From an uncultured SAR116 cluster alpha proteobacterium (lineage in GTDB: Bacteria > Pseudomonadota > Alphaproteobacteria > Puniceispirillales > Marisalimonadaceae), in assembly GCA_902539895.1 (NCBI GenBank), contig CACBMD010000005.1, positions 1 through 64,000 on the forward strand: a stretch of 64,000 nucleotides of DNA, in the 5' to 3' direction. The notes under the pieces are model-generated. The model was given only the letters and a program-made list of their open reading frames with translations, was not told the origin of the DNA and ran no database searches. This document shows, in pieces, positions 7,662 to 24,957 of this stretch (the first letter of the stretch is position 1; every line of letters begins with the position of its first letter). A program made the translations under genes and the position numbers.

Positions 7662-8999
7662 ATGAATACTAATACAAATAATCTTGTGTATTCTGTAAGT
7701 GAATTTTCACATGTAATCAAAAAATTAGTTGAAACAAACTTTAGTTATGTTCGTATTAGGGGTGAAATTTCTCGCCCTTCATTCCCAGGGTCAGGACATG
7801 TTTATTTTACCCTTAAAGATACAGAGGGTTCAATTGCCGCAATAATTTGGAAATATACTTTACCAAGGTTATCAATAAAGCCAGAAGAGGGTATGGAAGT
7901 GATTTGTACTGGGAAAGTAACCACTTTTGCAGGGCAATCTAAATATCAAATTATTGTAGAACGTATGGAAGTAGCAGGGGAAGGTGCGCTTCTAAAATTG
8001 CTTGAAGAGAGAAGAAAAAAACTTCTTAAAGAAGGATTGTTTGATCAAGAACTCAAAAAGCCAATACCTTATCTTCCAAAAATCATAGGTGTTATTACTA
8101 GTCCATCAGGTGCTGTAATAAAAGATATCCTTCACAGATTATCTGATCGATTTCCTTCTCATGTTTATTTGTGGCCAGTTGCTGTCCAAGGTGAAGATTC
8201 AGCACACCAAATTTCAAATGCAATTGATAAATTTAATCAATTAACAGAAAAAACAAGTATTAAAAAGCCTGACTTGCTTATAGTTGCTAGAGGTGGTGGT
8301 AGCTTAGAAGATTTATGGTCATTTAATGAGGAGATTGTAGTTAGATCAGTATATAAAAGTTCCATACCAGTAATATCTGCTGTAGGTCACGAAACTGATA
8401 CTACATTGATTGACTTTGTATCCGACTTAAGAGCTCCAACGCCTACAGCAGCTGCAGAAAAGGCAGTTCCAGTAAGAGTTGAATTAATATCAAGAATTGA
8501 CGAATTAAATTTAAGGATTAAGTCATCTTTTAATAATAAGTTGTATATTAATAAAGATCGTATTAATTACCTTATTAGGTTGTTAGGTAAGCCAGATCAA
8601 ATTTTTGAGAATAAAACACAAAAGTTAGATTTTACATACAAAGATTTTGAAAATTTATTTAAAGATATTTTTGTAGAGAAAAAAAACAAAATTACTCAAT
8701 TTGCACAATGTTTATTACCCCCCAAAATCTTGATAAGTAATTTAGTTTCAAAACAACAACTTCTTGAGACCAAATTTAAAAATTTTCTTGAAAACATAAT
8801 TAAAAGTAAAGAAACAAAATTAAATTCTTTAGTGCAGTTACTCGAGGCGTCAAGCTATAATAGAGTTCTTGAAAGAGGGTTTTCTCTTGTAATGAACAAT
8901 AAAGGTAAACCAATTAAACTTAGCAGTGAGGCTCCCAAAAATGCTAATGTTAAAATAAAGTTTTCAGATGAAATTAGATCAGCACAACTAGATAAATAA
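7662..8999 (+). CDS. xseA: Exodeoxyribonuclease VII large subunit
   Basis: Catalytic subunit of the processive single-strand exonuclease used in repair. An N-terminal OB-fold (residues about 8-100, VRIRGEISRPSFPGSGHVYFTL) precedes the nuclease core with GVITSPSGAVIKDI, RGGGSLEDLW, AVGHETD and RAPTPTAAAE motifs, then a long helical region and a C-terminal RGFSLV patch. Length 445 is normal. The small subunit xseB is not in the window. A 217 bp AT-rich gap follows before the tiny-gene cluster. Confidence 0.96.
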   Translation: MNTNTNNLVYSVSEFSHVIKKLVETNFSYVRIRGEISRPSFPGSGHVYFTLKDTEGSIAAIIWKYTLPRLSIKPEEGMEVICTGKVTTFAGQSKYQIIVERMEVAGEGALLKLLEERRKKLLKEGLFDQELKKPIPYLPKIIGVITSPSGAVIKDILHRLSDRFPSHVYLWPVAVQGEDSAHQISNAIDKFNQLTEKTSIKKPDLLIVARGGGSLEDLWSFNEEIVVRSVYKSSIPVISAVGHETDTTLIDFVSDLRAPTPTAAAEKAVPVRVELISRIDELNLRIKSSFNNKLYINKDRINYLIRLLGKPDQIFENKTQKLDFTYKDFENLFKDIFVEKKNKITQFAQCLLPPKILISNLVSKQQLLETKFKNFLENIIKSKETKLNSLVQLLEASSYNRVLERGFSLVMNNKGKPIKLSSEAPKNANVKIKFSDEIRSAQLDK

Positions 9000-9216
9000 G
9001 TTTGGATACAACCAAATTAGATGCGATCAGAGCTAACTATTTAATGTGATTTAGTCAACCTAAATGTCATAAAAAAGTATTTTTAATATGTGCCTGAGGG
9101 ACATACCAAATTGTAAAATATTGTAAACTTTTAATTTAATCAAATTTATATTTATATGAATATAAATAAATAATATAAAATATTTAATATAAAAACTAAA
9201 TGTGTTAAATTTTACT

Positions 9217-9348
9217 ATGAGAAAAGAACTAAAGCTATTTCTATTTGTAGCAATTTTTTTTATTTTGTTAAAAGGCTATATTTTTTTTTATATATCTCCT
9301 TCAATATTAACTAACCCTAATATGGGATATAATTTTATAGTTAAATGA
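9217..9348 (+). CDS. Small single-pass membrane protein (unknown), first of three
   Basis: A 43-codon frame starting MRKELKLFLF with a charged N-terminus and one membrane segment at about residues 7-28, then a short polar tail ending FIVK. It would be dismissed alone, but its TGA is separated by one base from the ATG of the next small membrane gene, and a third follows, which argues for a real operon. No family is recognised. The true start could be different, since no strong ribosome-binding site is visible upstream. Confidence 0.45.
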   Translation: MRKELKLFLFVAIFFILLKGYIFFYISPSILTNPNMGYNFIVK

Positions 9349-9349
9349 G

Positions 9350-9550
9350 ATGACAAAAAAAATCACAAATAATTTTGACCAATGGTGGAATGATGGAGAA
9401 AATAAATTTAAAAAGTTAATTTATCTTTTTACAAGTTGGTGGGATAATGGAAACAATAAATTATTTAAAGCAATCTTCATATCTTTAGCTTTTCATCTAA
9501 TTTTTGGTATTTTTTGGTTTTTTTTTAAGGGATTAAACTATATATTTTAA
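9350..9550 (+). CDS. Small Trp-rich membrane protein with internal duplication (unknown)
   Basis: Protein of 66 residues. Residues 12-26 (WWNDGENKFKKLIYL) and 30-44 (WWDNGNNKLFKAIFI) are copies of one unit with an 18-residue period; seven of 15 positions are identical. Each unit could form an amphipathic, interface-seeking helix led by a Trp pair. The second unit runs into a hydrophobic segment at about 40-60 that should span the membrane. Coupled to the upstream 43-residue gene by a one-base gap. Function unknown; the spacing, composition and coupling suggest a small membrane complex, which is inference. Confidence 0.6.
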   Translation: MTKKITNNFDQWWNDGENKFKKLIYLFTSWWDNGNNKLFKAIFISLAFHLIFGIFWFFFKGLNYIF

Positions 9551-9568
9551 AAAATAATAGGAAAAAAA

Positions 9569-9682
9569 TTGAAAAAAGACGGTAAACCACATTCTTATAT
9601 TTTTAAATGGTATCTTTGTGCATACGTAATTATAGCGGTTACAGTTATTTACTTAGAATATGATAACTGGTTTGGTGTGTAA
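9569..9682 (+). CDS. Small single-pass membrane protein (unknown), third of three
   Basis: A 37-codon frame starting at TTG with an AATAGGA ribosome-binding site eight bases upstream. The N-terminus is polar (KKDGKPHSYIFKWY), followed by one membrane segment at about residues 13-30 and a short tail ending DNWFGV. It lies 18 bp after the duplicated small gene and shares its size, topology and Trp content. No family is recognised. A downstream dyad (9739-9776) may end the transcript. Confidence 0.45.
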   Translation: MKKDGKPHSYIFKWYLCAYVIIAVTVIYLEYDNWFGV

Positions 9683-9738
9683 TTTATAATTTTTTATTTG
9701 GATAACGCTCCATCTGTTTAGCACATTTAATATAAATA

Positions 9739-9776
9739 TCTGGTCACACTCTCGTGCAAAGTGATACACTACCAGA
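9739..9776. other. Dyad / possible structured element between convergent genes
   Basis: TCTGGT at 9739-9744 pairs with ACCAGA at 9771-9776; inside, CACT (9747-9750) can pair with AGTG (9760-9763) around a nine-base loop. The patch is less AT-rich than surrounding spacers. It lies in the only roomy convergent gap of the window (third small gene to lpxL-like gene). No T-run follows on either strand, so it is not a canonical terminator. Confidence 0.3.
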
Positions 9777-9791
9777 GAAAGTAACCCCACT

Positions 9792-19792: not shown

Positions 19793-20557
19793 ATGTCTTT
19801 TTTAAAATATTTAATACCGGCTAGTTTTTTAGCCTTACTTCCAACACTTTCATTTGCAGGGTCACACGGTAATAATCTAGACCCAGGTGATGCTGTTGGT
19901 ATAAGTTTCTGGATAATATCTATTTCCATGGTTGCAGCAACTGTTTTTTTCTTAATGGAATCATTGAGAGTTAAAGGCAAGTGGAGAACATCTCTAGTTG
20001 TTGGTGCTCTTGTTACTTTAGTTGCTGGAGTTCACTATTTCTACATGAGAGAAATTTGGGCAGCCACAGGAGAATCACCAACTGTATTTAGATATGTAGA
20101 TTGGATAATTACAGTTCCACTTCAAATGATAGAATTCTACTTGATTTTAGCAGCATGTACAGCAGTTGCTGGTGGCGTGTTCTGGAGATTATTTCTTGGA
20201 TCTTTAGTAATGTTAATTGGTGGATATCTAGGTGAGGCTGGTTTTATAAATGCAACTATTGGTTTTGTAGTTGGAATGGCTGGATGGATATTCATTCTAT
20301 ATGAAATATTTGCTGGTGAAGCTAGTAAAGTTAGTGCAGAAAGTGCACCTGAATCCGTTCAATCAGCTTTTAACACAATGAAATGGATTGTGACAATTGG
20401 TTGGGCTATTTACCCAATTGGTTATTTCATGGGTTATATGGCTGGTGGTGCTGATGCAAACAGCTTAAATTTTATTTATAACATTGCAGATGTTATTAAC
20501 AAAATTGCTTTTTGTTTAGCGATATGGGCAGCAGCAACCACAGAATCCGATGCGTAA
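19793..20557 (+). CDS. Proteorhodopsin, blue-absorbing type (light-driven proton pump)
   Basis: Seven-helix retinal protein of 254 residues with a cleavable-looking signal peptide (about 1-22, ending SFAG). All pump residues are present: H81 (acceptor partner, GVHYFY), D103 (proton acceptor, YVDW), E114 (proton donor, MIEFYL) and K237 (retinal Schiff base, VINKIAF), each six higher than the reference green proteorhodopsin numbers (75, 97, 108, 231). The spectral tuning site, position 111 (105 in the reference), is Gln, which predicts blue absorption. It acts in the inner membrane, needs retinal, and is followed by the retinal pathway genes. Start fixed by the strong AAGGGGAG site. Confidence 0.97.
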   Translation: MSFLKYLIPASFLALLPTLSFAGSHGNNLDPGDAVGISFWIISISMVAATVFFLMESLRVKGKWRTSLVVGALVTLVAGVHYFYMREIWAATGESPTVFRYVDWIITVPLQMIEFYLILAACTAVAGGVFWRLFLGSLVMLIGGYLGEAGFINATIGFVVGMAGWIFILYEIFAGEASKVSAESAPESVQSAFNTMKWIVTIGWAIYPIGYFMGYMAGGADANSLNFIYNIADVINKIAFCLAIWAAATTESDA

Positions 20558-20629: not shown

Positions 20630-22126
20630 ATGAATTTATCTGAAAAAAAACAAATTAATAAAAAACTTAGAAGTATTGTAATTGGCGGTGGTTTTGGTGG
20701 TATAGCAACTGCTCTTAGATTAAGAGCCCTGGGTCATCAAGTTACTTTGTTAGAAAGATTAGGTTCTTTAGGAGGAAGAGCGCAAGTTTTTAAAAAAAAT
20801 GGTTTCAAACACGATGCTGGTCCAACTGTAATAACAGCTCCTTTTTTATTTGATGAACTTTTTGAACTATTCAACGAGAAAAGAGAAGAATATATTAAGT
20901 TTAAACCTTTAGAACCTTGGTACAGGTTTCATTTTCATGATGGTCAAACTTTTGATTATTCAGAAAGTATAAAAAAAACTGAAAATGAAATGAAAAGATT
21001 TTCAATTGAAGATGCAAACAATTATTATAAATTATTAGAAGCTTCCAAAGCAATTTTTGATGTTGGTTTTACAAAATTATCAGATAAACCTTTTAACTCT
21101 TTTTTTTATATGATGAAACAAGTGCCGGCATTAATAAAGTTGAAAAGTTATTTAACAGTTTCCCAATTAGTAAATAAATATATCAAAAATCCAAATTTAA
21201 GAGCAGCTTTTTCTATACATCCATTGTTAGTTGGAGGAAATCCGTTTTCTACTACTTCCATTTATGCACTTATACATTTTTTAGAAAGAAATTGGGGAGT
21301 TTATTTTAGTATGGGTGGTACTGGAAAACTTGTTGAAGAGTTAACGAACTTATTACAGCGGACTGGTGTTGAAATTAAATACAATACAGACATAAAAAAT
21401 GCTTTTGAAATAAATGGTAAAATTGAAAAAATTGAATGCATGAATGGCAATACATTTCATGCTGATAATTTTGTTTTTAATGGTGATCCACCTACCTTCT
21501 ATAATGAAATCTTGAAATCAAAAAGAAAAAAAAGAAAAAAATTTCTACCAGAAAGATTTACCAGTTATTCTTTCGGAATGTTTGTTTTGTTCTTTGGAAC
21601 TAAAAAACAATATCTAAATATAGCTCATCATTCAATTTGGTTAAGTAAAAGATTTAAAGGGTTATTAACTGATATTTTTGATAACAAAATTTTAAGTGAA
21701 GATTTTTCATTATATATACATAGACCAACTGCAACTGATGAAAGTTTTGCACCAAAAGGTTGTGATAGCTTTTATGTTCTTTGTCCTGTTCCTAATTTAC
21801 AAGGAAATATTAATTGGACAATTGAAGGTGATAAACTTAAAGACAGAATTGTAAACGCATTAGATAGTACAATTTTACCAGAATTAAAAAATAATATTTG
21901 TGACGAATTTTATATGACTCCAGTTGATTTTAAAAATGATTACCGTTCTACTCATGGTGCGGGGTTTTCAATAGCACCAAATTTTTCACAATCTGCATGG
22001 TTTCGATATCATAATAAAGATCCTCATATTGATAATTTATTCTTTGCTGCAGCTGGAGCTCATCCTGGTGCTGGTATTCCGGGTGTATTATCATCTGCAA
22101 AAGTAGTCGAAAGTTTATTAAGATAA
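20630..22126 (+). CDS. crtI: Phytoene desaturase
   Basis: FAD-dependent desaturase converting phytoene to lycopene. The dinucleotide-binding motif GGGFGG is at residues 19-24, with LLERLGSLGGRA, the substrate-loop start HDAGPTVITAP, and the C-terminal FFAAAGAHPGAGIPGVL that closes the FAD site. 498 residues, normal. It leads the overlapping set crtI-crtB-crtY-blh; no clear promoter was found between it and the opsin terminator, so it depends on read-through or a weak promoter in the 20-30 bp gap. Confidence 0.95.
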   Translation: MNLSEKKQINKKLRSIVIGGGFGGIATALRLRALGHQVTLLERLGSLGGRAQVFKKNGFKHDAGPTVITAPFLFDELFELFNEKREEYIKFKPLEPWYRFHFHDGQTFDYSESIKKTENEMKRFSIEDANNYYKLLEASKAIFDVGFTKLSDKPFNSFFYMMKQVPALIKLKSYLTVSQLVNKYIKNPNLRAAFSIHPLLVGGNPFSTTSIYALIHFLERNWGVYFSMGGTGKLVEELTNLLQRTGVEIKYNTDIKNAFEINGKIEKIECMNGNTFHADNFVFNGDPPTFYNEILKSKRKKRKKFLPERFTSYSFGMFVLFFGTKKQYLNIAHHSIWLSKRFKGLLTDIFDNKILSEDFSLYIHRPTATDESFAPKGCDSFYVLCPVPNLQGNINWTIEGDKLKDRIVNALDSTILPELKNNICDEFYMTPVDFKNDYRSTHGAGFSIAPNFSQSAWFRYHNKDPHIDNLFFAAAGAHPGAGIPGVLSSAKVVESLLR

Positions 22127-22137
22127 AAGAGCTTTAT

Positions 22138-23058
22138 ATGGATTGCCATATTGATGATGACAAAATAGTGCTAAAAAAAAATGGCAAAAGTTTTCATTGG
22201 GCTGGTAAGTTCTTGAAAAAAGAATGCATTAATAGGGCGGCTGAGTTATATAGTTTTTGTAGAATTTTAGATGACATAGCAGATAGTGGTGAAGCTAATT
22301 CCCATAATCATCTCATTAATATTAAATCCATAATTAAAAAACATACAATTACAGAACTAGAAAATAATTATTCAATTAAGTATCCTAAATTTTTAAAATC
22401 ATCTTCTAGAAAAGTAGTAATAGATTTAATTGATGGACTTATTTTAGATCAAAAGGGTGTTTTATTTGAGCAGGAAGAAGAGTTAATTAGATATTCTTAT
22501 CATGTTGCTGGAACTGTTGGAATAATGATGTGTGATGCTTTAAAGTGTAATAATGGTCTTGCTAAATCATTTGCTATAGATCTCGGAATAGCTATGCAGC
22601 TTACAAATATTGCAAGAGATATTTTAGAAGACGCTAAAATGGGAAGACGATATTTACCTGGGAGCTGGGTTCAGAATATTTCACCTAAAGAAATAGTTTT
22701 AGCAGCTAAAACTAATGACTTAAAAAAAATTCATATGATTTCAAAAGGTATTAAAAAATTATTAATTCTAGCTGAACAATATTATTTGAGTGGAGAAAAA
22801 GGTTTCACCTTTCTGCCCTTTAATACAAGGGTTGCAATTTCTGTAGCATCAGGAGTTTATAGAGAGATTGGGGTGCAGTTAGAAAATGAAAATTACAATT
22901 GGCAAAATGGAAGGCAAATAACATCAATCTTCTCGAAAATAAAAATTACACTATTCAAGACTTTTAAAGAGATTTTTTATTTAAGAAACAAGAAAAAGCA
23001 TAATTCTGAACTACATATTTATTTAGAAAATTTAGTGAATGATAAAAAAGGAAATTAA
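22138..23058 (+). CDS. crtB: Phytoene synthase
   Basis: Condenses two geranylgeranyl diphosphates to phytoene. Both Asp-rich metal-binding motifs are present: DDIAD at 45-49 and RDILED at 160-165, followed by GRRYLPG. 306 residues, normal. It starts 11 bp after crtI and its last 20 bp overlap crtY. The precursor enzyme crtE is absent from the window. Confidence 0.94.
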   Translation: MDCHIDDDKIVLKKNGKSFHWAGKFLKKECINRAAELYSFCRILDDIADSGEANSHNHLINIKSIIKKHTITELENNYSIKYPKFLKSSSRKVVIDLIDGLILDQKGVLFEQEEELIRYSYHVAGTVGIMMCDALKCNNGLAKSFAIDLGIAMQLTNIARDILEDAKMGRRYLPGSWVQNISPKEIVLAAKTNDLKKIHMISKGIKKLLILAEQYYLSGEKGFTFLPFNTRVAISVASGVYREIGVQLENENYNWQNGRQITSIFSKIKITLFKTFKEIFYLRNKKKHNSELHIYLENLVNDKKGN

Positions 23059-24154
23059 CATTATTGGAGGTGGTTGCGCAGCATTATCATTGGCTAGATT
23101 AATTCGCAACTTACCTAACTACAAATTTAATTTATTTATAGGTAACAAAAATAAAACTAATAAAGATCATTTTTGGGGATTTTGGAAAGTAAAAATTAAT
23201 GATGATGCTTACAAAAAAGCAAATCATGTGTGGTCAAAATGGTCAATCAATACTAATGACTCTAAACATATTCTAACGTCAGTTAAACATCCTTATTGTG
23301 TGATAAAAAGGAAAAAATGGTTGGGTATATGTAAAAAACAACTTCCAAGTCAAAAATATACCATTTTAGAAAATGATGTACTTGAAAAAGATGGTCAATT
23401 ATTTGTTAAGAATAAGAAAATTAATGGTGATTTAGTATTTGATAGTAGACCACCTAAAATTCCGAGCAATATTTTGTTGCAGCACTTTGAAGGATTTGTA
23501 GTTACTTCTGAGAAAGATGTATTTGATCAAGATATAGTAACATTAATGGATTTCAGATGTGATCAGTCAAGAGGTATGCATTTTATTTACCTACTACCAT
23601 TTAGTAAACGGAAAGCATTGGTTGAATCTACAATGTTTTCAAAAACAGTTGAGAACAAAGAATTTTATTCAGCTGAAATTTCAATATATCTCAAAAAATA
23701 TTTTAACTTAGTCAAGTTCACAAAGAGTGATCATGAAAAAGGTATTATTCCCATGCATTATATTTCTTGTGTATCTAGAGAATTTTTTAATATTGGTACA
23801 AGAGGTGGGGCAGTAAGACCTTCTTCGGGATATGCTTTTACTTTTATTCAAAAACAGGCATTTCAAATAATTAGCCAAATAAAAAATAGAAAAAAAATTA
23901 ATACTCAAATTCATAATGCTATTGATTTATTTTTAGATGAAATATTTATAAATGTTATCAATGAGTATCCTATCTTAGCTTCCAAAATTTTTTCAAGTTT
24001 AGGCAGAATTTTAAATGGTGATGAAATGGCTAAATTTATGTCTGGAAATGCCTCACTATTAACAACTTGCAAAATAATTATTTCAATGCCTAAAATACCA
24101 TTTATTAAATCATTTTTTTATGTTGTGTATCGTAAATGGTTCAATTTACCTTAG
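23039..24154 (+). CDS. crtY: Lycopene beta-cyclase
   Basis: Flavoprotein that cyclises both ends of lycopene to make beta-carotene. The N-terminal nucleotide-binding signature IIGGGCAALSLA is at residues 8-19; FDSRPPK and MDFRCDQ follow in the family order. 371 residues. Overlaps crtB by 20 bp and blh by 19 bp, so translation of the three is probably coupled. Confidence 0.92.
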   Translation: MIKKEINIIGGGCAALSLARLIRNLPNYKFNLFIGNKNKTNKDHFWGFWKVKINDDAYKKANHVWSKWSINTNDSKHILTSVKHPYCVIKRKKWLGICKKQLPSQKYTILENDVLEKDGQLFVKNKKINGDLVFDSRPPKIPSNILLQHFEGFVVTSEKDVFDQDIVTLMDFRCDQSRGMHFIYLLPFSKRKALVESTMFSKTVENKEFYSAEISIYLKKYFNLVKFTKSDHEKGIIPMHYISCVSREFFNIGTRGGAVRPSSGYAFTFIQKQAFQIISQIKNRKKINTQIHNAIDLFLDEIFINVINEYPILASKIFSSLGRILNGDEMAKFMSGNASLLTTCKIIISMPKIPFIKSFFYVVYRKWFNLP

Positions 24155-24957
24155 ATTGGTTAGATTATATCTCATTATTTTTTATTATTTTTATGGGTAT
24201 TCCCCATGGAGCTCTTGATGGTGCCATCTCTGTTACATTAGGTTTTACGAAAAGTTTTTATTTACAGGTACGATTTATAATTACATATTTATTTGTCGGT
24301 ACATTAATTGTTGTTCTCTGGTATTTTTTACCAGTTTTTTCCCTCATTTTGTTCTTAATACTAAGTATTTTTCATTTTGGTTGTGGTGATTTAAATTGGA
24401 AAAATAATACTTTATATTATATCTGTGGTTATGCTCATGGGGGGGTGGTAGTATTGGGCATAATTTTTTTTAACAAAGATGAAGTTAATCATCTCTTTTC
24501 AATTTTATCTGGTAATCAATTGTATTTATTGTGGCAATTTCTTTACATGGCTCTTTTAGTATGGATTTTCTCATTAATTTTAATGTTATTTAATTATAAA
24601 AAAATTACTTTCTCTAAAAATTATATTAAATTATTTACTGTAATGGTTTTAGTGATATCACTTTTTCCCCCTTTGCCAGCTTTTGCAATATATTTTTGTC
24701 TTATTCACAGCATTCACCATTTTAAAAGAATTATACCAACATTACTTAACTTTATGGAAAAGAAAAAAATATTGTACCTAATGATTATTTTTTCTGTATT
24801 GAGTTGGTTAGGTGGCGGAACTGTATATTATATTTTACTAAATTTATATTCATATACAGATACAATTATAAAAGTAACTTTTATTGGTTTGGCAGCGTTA
24901 ACTTTCCCACATATGATTTTAGTAGACGGTGTGTTTAGGTTAAAGTATAAAGTTTAA
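24136..24957 (+). CDS. blh: Beta-carotene 15,15'-dioxygenase (retinal-forming, Brp/Blh family)
   Basis: Integral membrane iron enzyme that splits beta-carotene into two retinals for the opsin. 273 residues with about seven to eight hydrophobic segments. Conserved His clusters are visible: PHGALDG (H24), SIFHFG near 80, HSIHHF near 190, and a C-terminal FPHMILVDG. Last gene of the carotenoid set; its stop lies 11 bp from the convergent ubiA stop. Confidence 0.93.
   Translation: MVQFTLDWLDYISLFFIIFMGIPHGALDGAISVTLGFTKSFYLQVRFIITYLFVGTLIVVLWYFLPVFSLILFLILSIFHFGCGDLNWKNNTLYYICGYAHGGVVVLGIIFFNKDEVNHLFSILSGNQLYLLWQFLYMALLVWIFSLILMLFNYKKITFSKNYIKLFTVMVLVISLFPPLPAFAIYFCLIHSIHHFKRIIPTLLNFMEKKKILYLMIIFSVLSWLGGGTVYYILLNLYSYTDTIIKVTFIGLAALTFPHMILVDGVFRLKYKV

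Follow-up and report, generated by a model that had tools for sequence, protein, structure and literature searches.

The window, the whole stretch of 64,000 nt analysed here, is contig C5 of a SAR116 cluster genome of 1.44 Mb, which is 69% complete and consists of 71 contigs. Between the stop codon of xseA and the end of an lpxL-type acyltransferase gene, a block of about 800 bp carries three tiny genes on one strand, here called A, B and C. The features of this locus are:

7662–8999, plus strand: xseA (Pfam Exonuc_VII_L), upstream flank of A-B-C
9000–9791, plus strand: inserted block of about 800 bp with A-B-C, from the xseA stop (8999) to the lpxL end (9792)
9217–9348, plus strand: gene A, 43 codons, membrane segment at about residues 8–26 (17-row alignment, dN/dS, hydropathy)
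9350–9550, plus strand: gene B, 66 codons, two WW units followed by one membrane helix
9383–9436, plus strand: repeat unit 1 of B, 18 codons, WWNDGENK..., direct repeat with a spacing of 54 nt
9437–9490, plus strand: repeat unit 2 of B, 18 codons, WWDNGNNK..., continuing into the membrane helix
9559–9562, plus strand: Shine-Dalgarno-like AGGA of gene C, read directly, in a region kept in the alignment of relatives
9569–9682, plus strand: gene C, 37 codons, TTG start, one membrane helix
9792–10706, minus strand: lpxL-type acyltransferase gene (Pfam Lip_A_acyltrans), downstream flank of A-B-C

The three frames of 43, 66 and 37 codons are found exactly as the original prediction had described them, on the same strand and with gaps of 1 bp (from the A stop to the ATG of B) and 18 bp (from B to C). 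The one ribosome-binding site mentioned there is the AGGA at 9559–9562. It lies six bases 5' of the TTG of C and is the only Shine-Dalgarno-like site of the trio; B has none. The TTG start of C is supported by an ATG at the equivalent position of the alignment in two relatives (L009 and L012). Since B begins 1 nt past the stop of A and is not preceded by a Shine-Dalgarno-like site of its own, its translation is probably coupled to that of A. Each of the three proteins contains one strongly hydrophobic 19-residue window, with Kyte-Doolittle means of 2.38 (A), 2.29 (B) and 1.98 (C) in the best window, which agrees with the single membrane segment expected for each, and the paired tryptophans of B at residues 12–13 and 30–31 give the 18-residue period claimed for it. 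Elsewhere in the window, judged by eye, a frame of 254 aa at 19793–20557 reads like proteorhodopsin and is followed at 20630–24957 by frames resembling carotenoid/retinal biosynthesis genes.

None of the three had been recognised at first sight, and database searches led to the same result, as Pfam, NCBIfam, PHROGs, PADLOC and the PDB yielded nothing significant. No Pfam model came near its cut-off for A, B or C (the toxin-type model Lysis_col gave E = 2.9), nor for 16 B and 19 C relatives. The best match to a toxin family was Fst in NCBIfam, for B, with E = 1 and 9.3 bits against a cut-off of 26, PHROGs gave nothing significant and PADLOC no model above chance. A sequence search of the PDB returned eight weak matches (E 0.25–2.7), all of them T4-lysozyme fusion proteins, and further PDB sequence searches gave only E values of 0.47 and above. 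For the predicted fold of B no neighbour was found in the PDB at E up to 10, and among viral models there were two at E = 7.8. A known family was thus rejected for all three, and so was a structured RNA, for which the only candidate was rteR (E = 4.3, 19.2 bits against a cut-off of 72).

We searched 101 genomes for relatives. B was found at E < 1e-13 in 34 of them and the matched stretch is free of stops in all 34; four more genomes gave weak matches, two of which (G041, G044) are a genuine shorter form. The A profile matched in 39 genomes, many of them by the A' paralogues treated below, and the C profile in 34. Median pairwise dN/dS, counted without broken copies of A and copies cut by contig ends, is 0.14 for A in subclade a (11 intact copies) and about 0.04 in subclade b (8), 0.23 and 0.18 for B (16 and 8 copies), and 0.24 and 0.035 for C (16 and 10 copies). 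In the two wrong frames pN/pS ranges from 0.57 to 4.3, the minimum of 0.57 belonging to frame +1 of C. Thus, the frames are conserved among the marine alphaproteobacterial relatives that belong to SAR116, the comparison of synonymous with nonsynonymous change indicates purifying selection on A, B and C, and neither a lack of conservation nor nonsense changes in most relatives were seen for B and C. By these measures A, B and C are real coding genes under purifying selection, as the original prediction had argued against random frames, and conservation together with dN/dS excludes chance frames.

Named relatives with B (33 loci) come from SAR116 cluster genomes, plus three records titled alpha proteobacterium or Pseudomonadota. 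In genus g1 (below, the genus) B is present in 28 of 40 genomes at E < 1e-13 and the identical 28 also have C. The other 12, among them G014 (99% complete) and G030 (100% complete), lack both; weak B matches with stops in G006 and G018 were scored as absent. A search of 289 genomes sampled across the class for B and C found only the window's own genome. When the protein from genus g3 was used to search 136 genomes of the order, matches were obtained in 31, all in the same family. A single SAR116 family accounts for all the B and C genes found in these searches.

The original prediction expected a conserved triplet in one operon, and this holds in part. The genes are tightly packed on the same strand, their order is kept in the genus, and C directly follows B in all 28 loci (one C is cut by a contig end). 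A or a remnant of it lies upstream of B in all 25 loci with upstream DNA on the contig. What did not hold is the integrity of the whole triplet, as A is broken in 6 of these 25 loci, the gap between A and B widens to about 75–165 bp in subclade b, and in the two genomes outside the genus which have both genes (G048, G052) B and C are on different contigs. In genus g2, B occurs in 5 of 13 genomes and C in 5 of 13, with both in 2, among the matches listed, so that their co-occurrence there does not exceed chance expectation; outside the genus each also occurs singly, in incomplete genomes. Because A decays, the A-B gap widens and B and C are unlinked outside the genus, the comparison points to A-B-C as a genus-level arrangement with B-C as its stable core.

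The position of the module was followed in 30 xseA loci, in 25 of which the distance between xseA and lpxL could be measured. In the remaining five, the contig of G028 ends inside C, three have no lpxL in reach and one contig is too short. With the module at this site the gap is 719–808 bp (9 genomes of the genus). Without it, 13 of 14 genomes of the genus have a gap of 23–156 bp, and the remaining one has 554 bp filled with different sequence; two genomes outside the family have 111 and 265 bp. The module follows xseA also in G028. Several other genomes, for example G004 and G015, have no insert between xseA and lpxL and carry the module elsewhere. Among its neighbours there are small unannotated genes and a tautomerase gene, which lies upstream of it in L088, L089 and L092 (Pfam PF01361 in L089). 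Convincing terminal repeats of the insert were not found, the best inverted arms being 23 nt long and 78% complementary in AT-rich DNA. At the end of one contig (L085:3–573) an lpxL fragment is inverted directly against an xseA fragment, an arrangement that looks like a chimera from single-cell genome amplification.

Nine of the ten carriers of the module at this site cluster together in trees of PurD and XseA from 27 genomes of the genus. Nested in this cluster is G004, which lacks the insert and has a more divergent B (75% identity) elsewhere. The tenth genome, G028, groups with G030 and G027, both without B and C. Its similarity to G009 is 60–85% through xseA and 87–97% from the 3' end of xseA onward, and this change of affinity (L133) falls at oriented position about 2750–2800, next to the module. 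This fits a transfer of the module into G028 by recombination; as the contig ends about 700 bp beyond the breakpoint, an assembly chimera is a possible alternative. Judged from its absence from near-complete genomes of the genus and from its having moved or been transferred, the A-B-C unit is accessory and not essential.

The two units of B, WWNDGENKFKKLIYLFTS and WWDNGNNKLFKAIFISLA, are spaced by 54 nt. At the DNA level the direct repeat covers 26 nt with 85% identity at the same spacing. The window protein alone does not prove a repeat: self-comparison gives 12 identities in 48 positions at offset 18 and 8 in 47 at the next best of the offsets listed, and shuffled B sequences reach 15 identities (mean of the maxima 8.2). 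It is the relatives that establish it, because both units are conserved in the aligned sequences and because a single-unit form exists in a sister genus. This is genus g3 (L159, L160), in which the B homologue has 45 residues and only one unit, reading MDKESQERLRTWWNDGDGKLKKSLYIFLCLQMLLGIIWFIEYIFI in L159. The simplest account of this distribution would be that 18 codons were duplicated in tandem in an ancestor shared by the other genera; the alternative is that one unit was lost in g3.

An AlphaFold model of B, based on 22 sequences, has a mean pLDDT of 87.7 and a pTM of 0.54. It predicts helices at residues 2–13, 19–31 and 37–65, separated by the turns NDGEN and DNGNN, and places each WW at the end of a helix before a turn. 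Helix 2–13 is amphipathic with a hydrophobic moment of 0.59, a value reached by 0.7% of shuffled sequences; for helix 19–31 the amphipathicity is not significant in the same kind of comparison (p = 0.07). For C, the model (mean pLDDT 79.9) has one helix, at residues 9–36. According to the positive-inside rule, the flank rich in lysine and arginine lies on the cytoplasmic side. The charges before the membrane segment (K/R against D/E) are +3/-1 in A, +7/-4 in B and +3/-1 in C, and since K/R exceed D/E in all three window proteins, this suggests an N-in/C-out topology for A, B and C. With such a predicted topology the WW units of B would be located at the cytoplasmic face of the membrane.

The start codon of B deserves separate consideration. 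Six B loci from genera g2 and g4 (L099–L104) were examined, and none has an ATG, GTG or TTG ahead of its first WW unit; L101 and L103 lack these codons throughout the 72-codon frame, and L099, L100, L102 and L104 have one only further inside. A Shine-Dalgarno-like stretch precedes an ATT in each, in the form AGGAGAC-ATT-ATC/ATT in L100, L101, L103 and L104, GGAGAATTTT-ATT in L099 and AAGGTGTTAAC-ATT in L102, and in L099 and L102 the codons ATT ACA/ACC align with the ATG ACA (M-T) of genus g1. In the four rows from g2, variable columns counted by codon position are 9, 7 and 19 from this ATT onward, with the third position favoured, and 3, 5 and 5 in the 21 nt before it. AUU or AUC is therefore the probable start of B in g2 and g4, and a gene started in this way would be missed by gene callers limited to ATG, GTG and TTG. 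The E. coli genes infC and pcnB are described as starting at AUU (PMC9410913), and so is the conserved cvfC1 of 61 residues in S. aureus (PMC13009471). In common with these, B has its putative AUU behind a Shine-Dalgarno-like motif, and cvfC1 is likewise a small protein; unlike them, B is alphaproteobacterial, is a membrane protein and uses ATG in one genus where two others probably use ATT/ATC.

Of the three genes, A is the least robust: 6 of 25 loci have a broken copy, and its family is multicopy and also occurs in a second array. It has its full length in 19 of 28 loci and is frameshifted or deleted in L006, L007, L012, L015, L017 and L028; in L018, L021 and L030 contig ends are too near for A to be in view. 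In subclade b all eight copies are intact. Over 34 residues A is 59% identical to a protein, A', encoded on another contig of the window's genome, and the A' family has up to about four copies per genome in the genus. Its members take part in another array, in which a Cys-rich frame of 73 aa, a 48-aa protein B' with WW and a helix, A' (37 aa) and D' (39 aa) share one strand; often E' (30 aa), on the opposite strand, and a further Cys-rich frame come next:

L058, L061, L056, L138–L148 and L034:400–713 (own genome, contig C39): second tiny-gene array (Zn-B'-A'-D')

Among the second-array proteins scanned against Pfam none scored above the cut-off. The two arrays resemble each other in that A and A' are homologous and that both hold a small protein with WW and a helix. 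They differ in that B' has no detectable homology to B and in that the second array has the Cys-rich 73-aa protein and is without C. These comparisons suggest that A is interchangeable, in line with its decay in some copies of the module. On the same contig of the window's genome, a 46-codon frame (L034:784–924, minus strand) reads VAQLDRALDYESRGQEFESSRAHH, which we take to be the typical pattern of a mistranslated tRNA gene. Furthermore, a 459-aa protein without a Pfam match (L150:476–1855; L152:321–1700, minus strand) has an N-terminus about 30% like B' over 42 residues, and short frames in many genomes of the genus likewise resemble B'; perhaps a shared membrane-anchor motif lies behind this resemblance.

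A, B and C are new families of a known kind, that of small bitopic membrane proteins. Two features are uncommon for such a set: the WW unit is duplicated, and B probably starts at AUU/AUC in two genera. CydX, KdpF, AcrZ and MgrB are described as small bitopic modulators of membrane complexes (PMC11539335, PMC4325964, PMC7267776), and the well-studied bacterial small membrane proteins are said to act mostly on larger complexes (PMC11539335). A, B and C are similar to these in size (CydX has 37 aa), in the single membrane helix and in having no enzyme-like domain. They differ in sequence, to which none of the four gives a match, and in arrangement: A-B-C are three in a row, are found in one SAR116 family, include a B with a duplicated WW unit and, other than genes of the CydX, KdpF or AcrZ type, are not beside a large membrane complex, their neighbours being xseA, lpxL and, elsewhere, other genes. 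In the global small-protein catalogue GMSC most conserved families are reported to have no Pfam domain (PMC11364881); A, B and C are likewise conserved, membrane-located and unannotated, with the difference that an AUU-initiated B would escape a gene caller that relies on ATG, GTG and TTG. Literature searches found nothing on small (membrane) proteins of SAR116 and nothing joining small membrane proteins, marine bacteria and small open reading frames, and a search for Pelagibacter with small membrane protein yielded only unrelated work.

Most likely, the products of A-B-C are small membrane modulators that make up an accessory set able to move. In its fuller form, to which we give about an even chance, this reading takes them as a single-span accessory unit of the inner membrane, the members of which bind each other or a larger membrane protein and modulate it. 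All three would insert N-in/C-out. In B, the paired tryptophans would hold the two WW units, as short amphipathic helices, against the membrane on its cytoplasmic side, ahead of the membrane helix. B and C would then bind each other and/or a larger membrane protein, A being a partner that can be spared; this is the likeliest mode of action because no enzyme-like domain is present, and the binding may change the activity or stability of that protein, as KdpF, AcrZ and MgrB do. In favour of this reading are the conservation and dN/dS, the joint presence and absence of B and C and their adjacency in the genus, the insert at an otherwise near-empty site, the hydropathy and charge pattern, the amphipathic helix 2–13 and the confident three-helix model of B. 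Against such a role speak the co-occurrence of B and C, which is not beyond chance outside the genus, the decay of A, the lack of significant amphipathicity in helix 19–31 and the pTM of only 0.54.

Another explanation, which we consider possible but clearly less probable, is that the three are independent small membrane proteins with roles of their own, clustered only because flexible regions collect tiny genes. The membership of A in a multicopy family with its own second array and the separation of B and C outside the genus are in its favour, whereas the adjacency of B and C in 28 of 28 loci of the genus, in several neighbourhoods, argues against it. B and C are also gained and lost together, but physical linkage alone gives joint loss as well. 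We regard it as improbable that the proteins, and A in particular, resemble type I toxins or depolarise the membrane and are kept silent by an antisense RNA. All three are small and hydrophobic with one membrane segment, as one looks for in such toxins, and A is tiny, multicopy and decayed by frameshift in several lineages; yet no toxin model scored above chance (Fst, E = 1 for B), there was no match to an RNA family, and in subclade b A has a dN/dS of 0.036 and its full length in 8 of 8 copies. More doubtful still are phage-derived or phage-exclusion proteins on a mobile island. An accessory, transferable module that changes sites would suit this, but B matched no phage record, A and C have no relative on viral contigs, the only viral-contig match of B is a weak one over 25 residues (L106, E = 3e-6, among pre-selected candidates), PADLOC has no model above chance and no integrase or phage gene lies beside the window copy. 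Random open frames or non-coding sequence, which AT-rich DNA, short frames and weak start signals might suggest, are hardly credible and refuted by a dN/dS well below 1 solely in the frame that is read and by the 34 stop-free B orthologues.

SAR116 is counted among the most abundant groups of heterotrophs in the surface ocean (PMC8547437), and its conserved tiny genes are largely unannotated; a B without an ATG, GTG or TTG start would be absent from every standard gene list. With three proteins of 37–66 residues, natural presence and absence within one genus, a single-repeat evolutionary intermediate and a documented near-empty site, the module offers a tractable test case. Extending the modulator reading, we tentatively propose a SAR116-specific, transferable micro-complex of three proteins, in which B was formed when an 18-residue WW-helix unit was doubled and in which its AUU/AUC start in two genera might mean a low, IF3-sensitive output. 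This is rather less probable than the modulator role itself. If true, it would mean, together with the Zn-B'-A'-D' array, that this marine lineage has a stock of tiny membrane modules which can be exchanged and which gene callers do not see.
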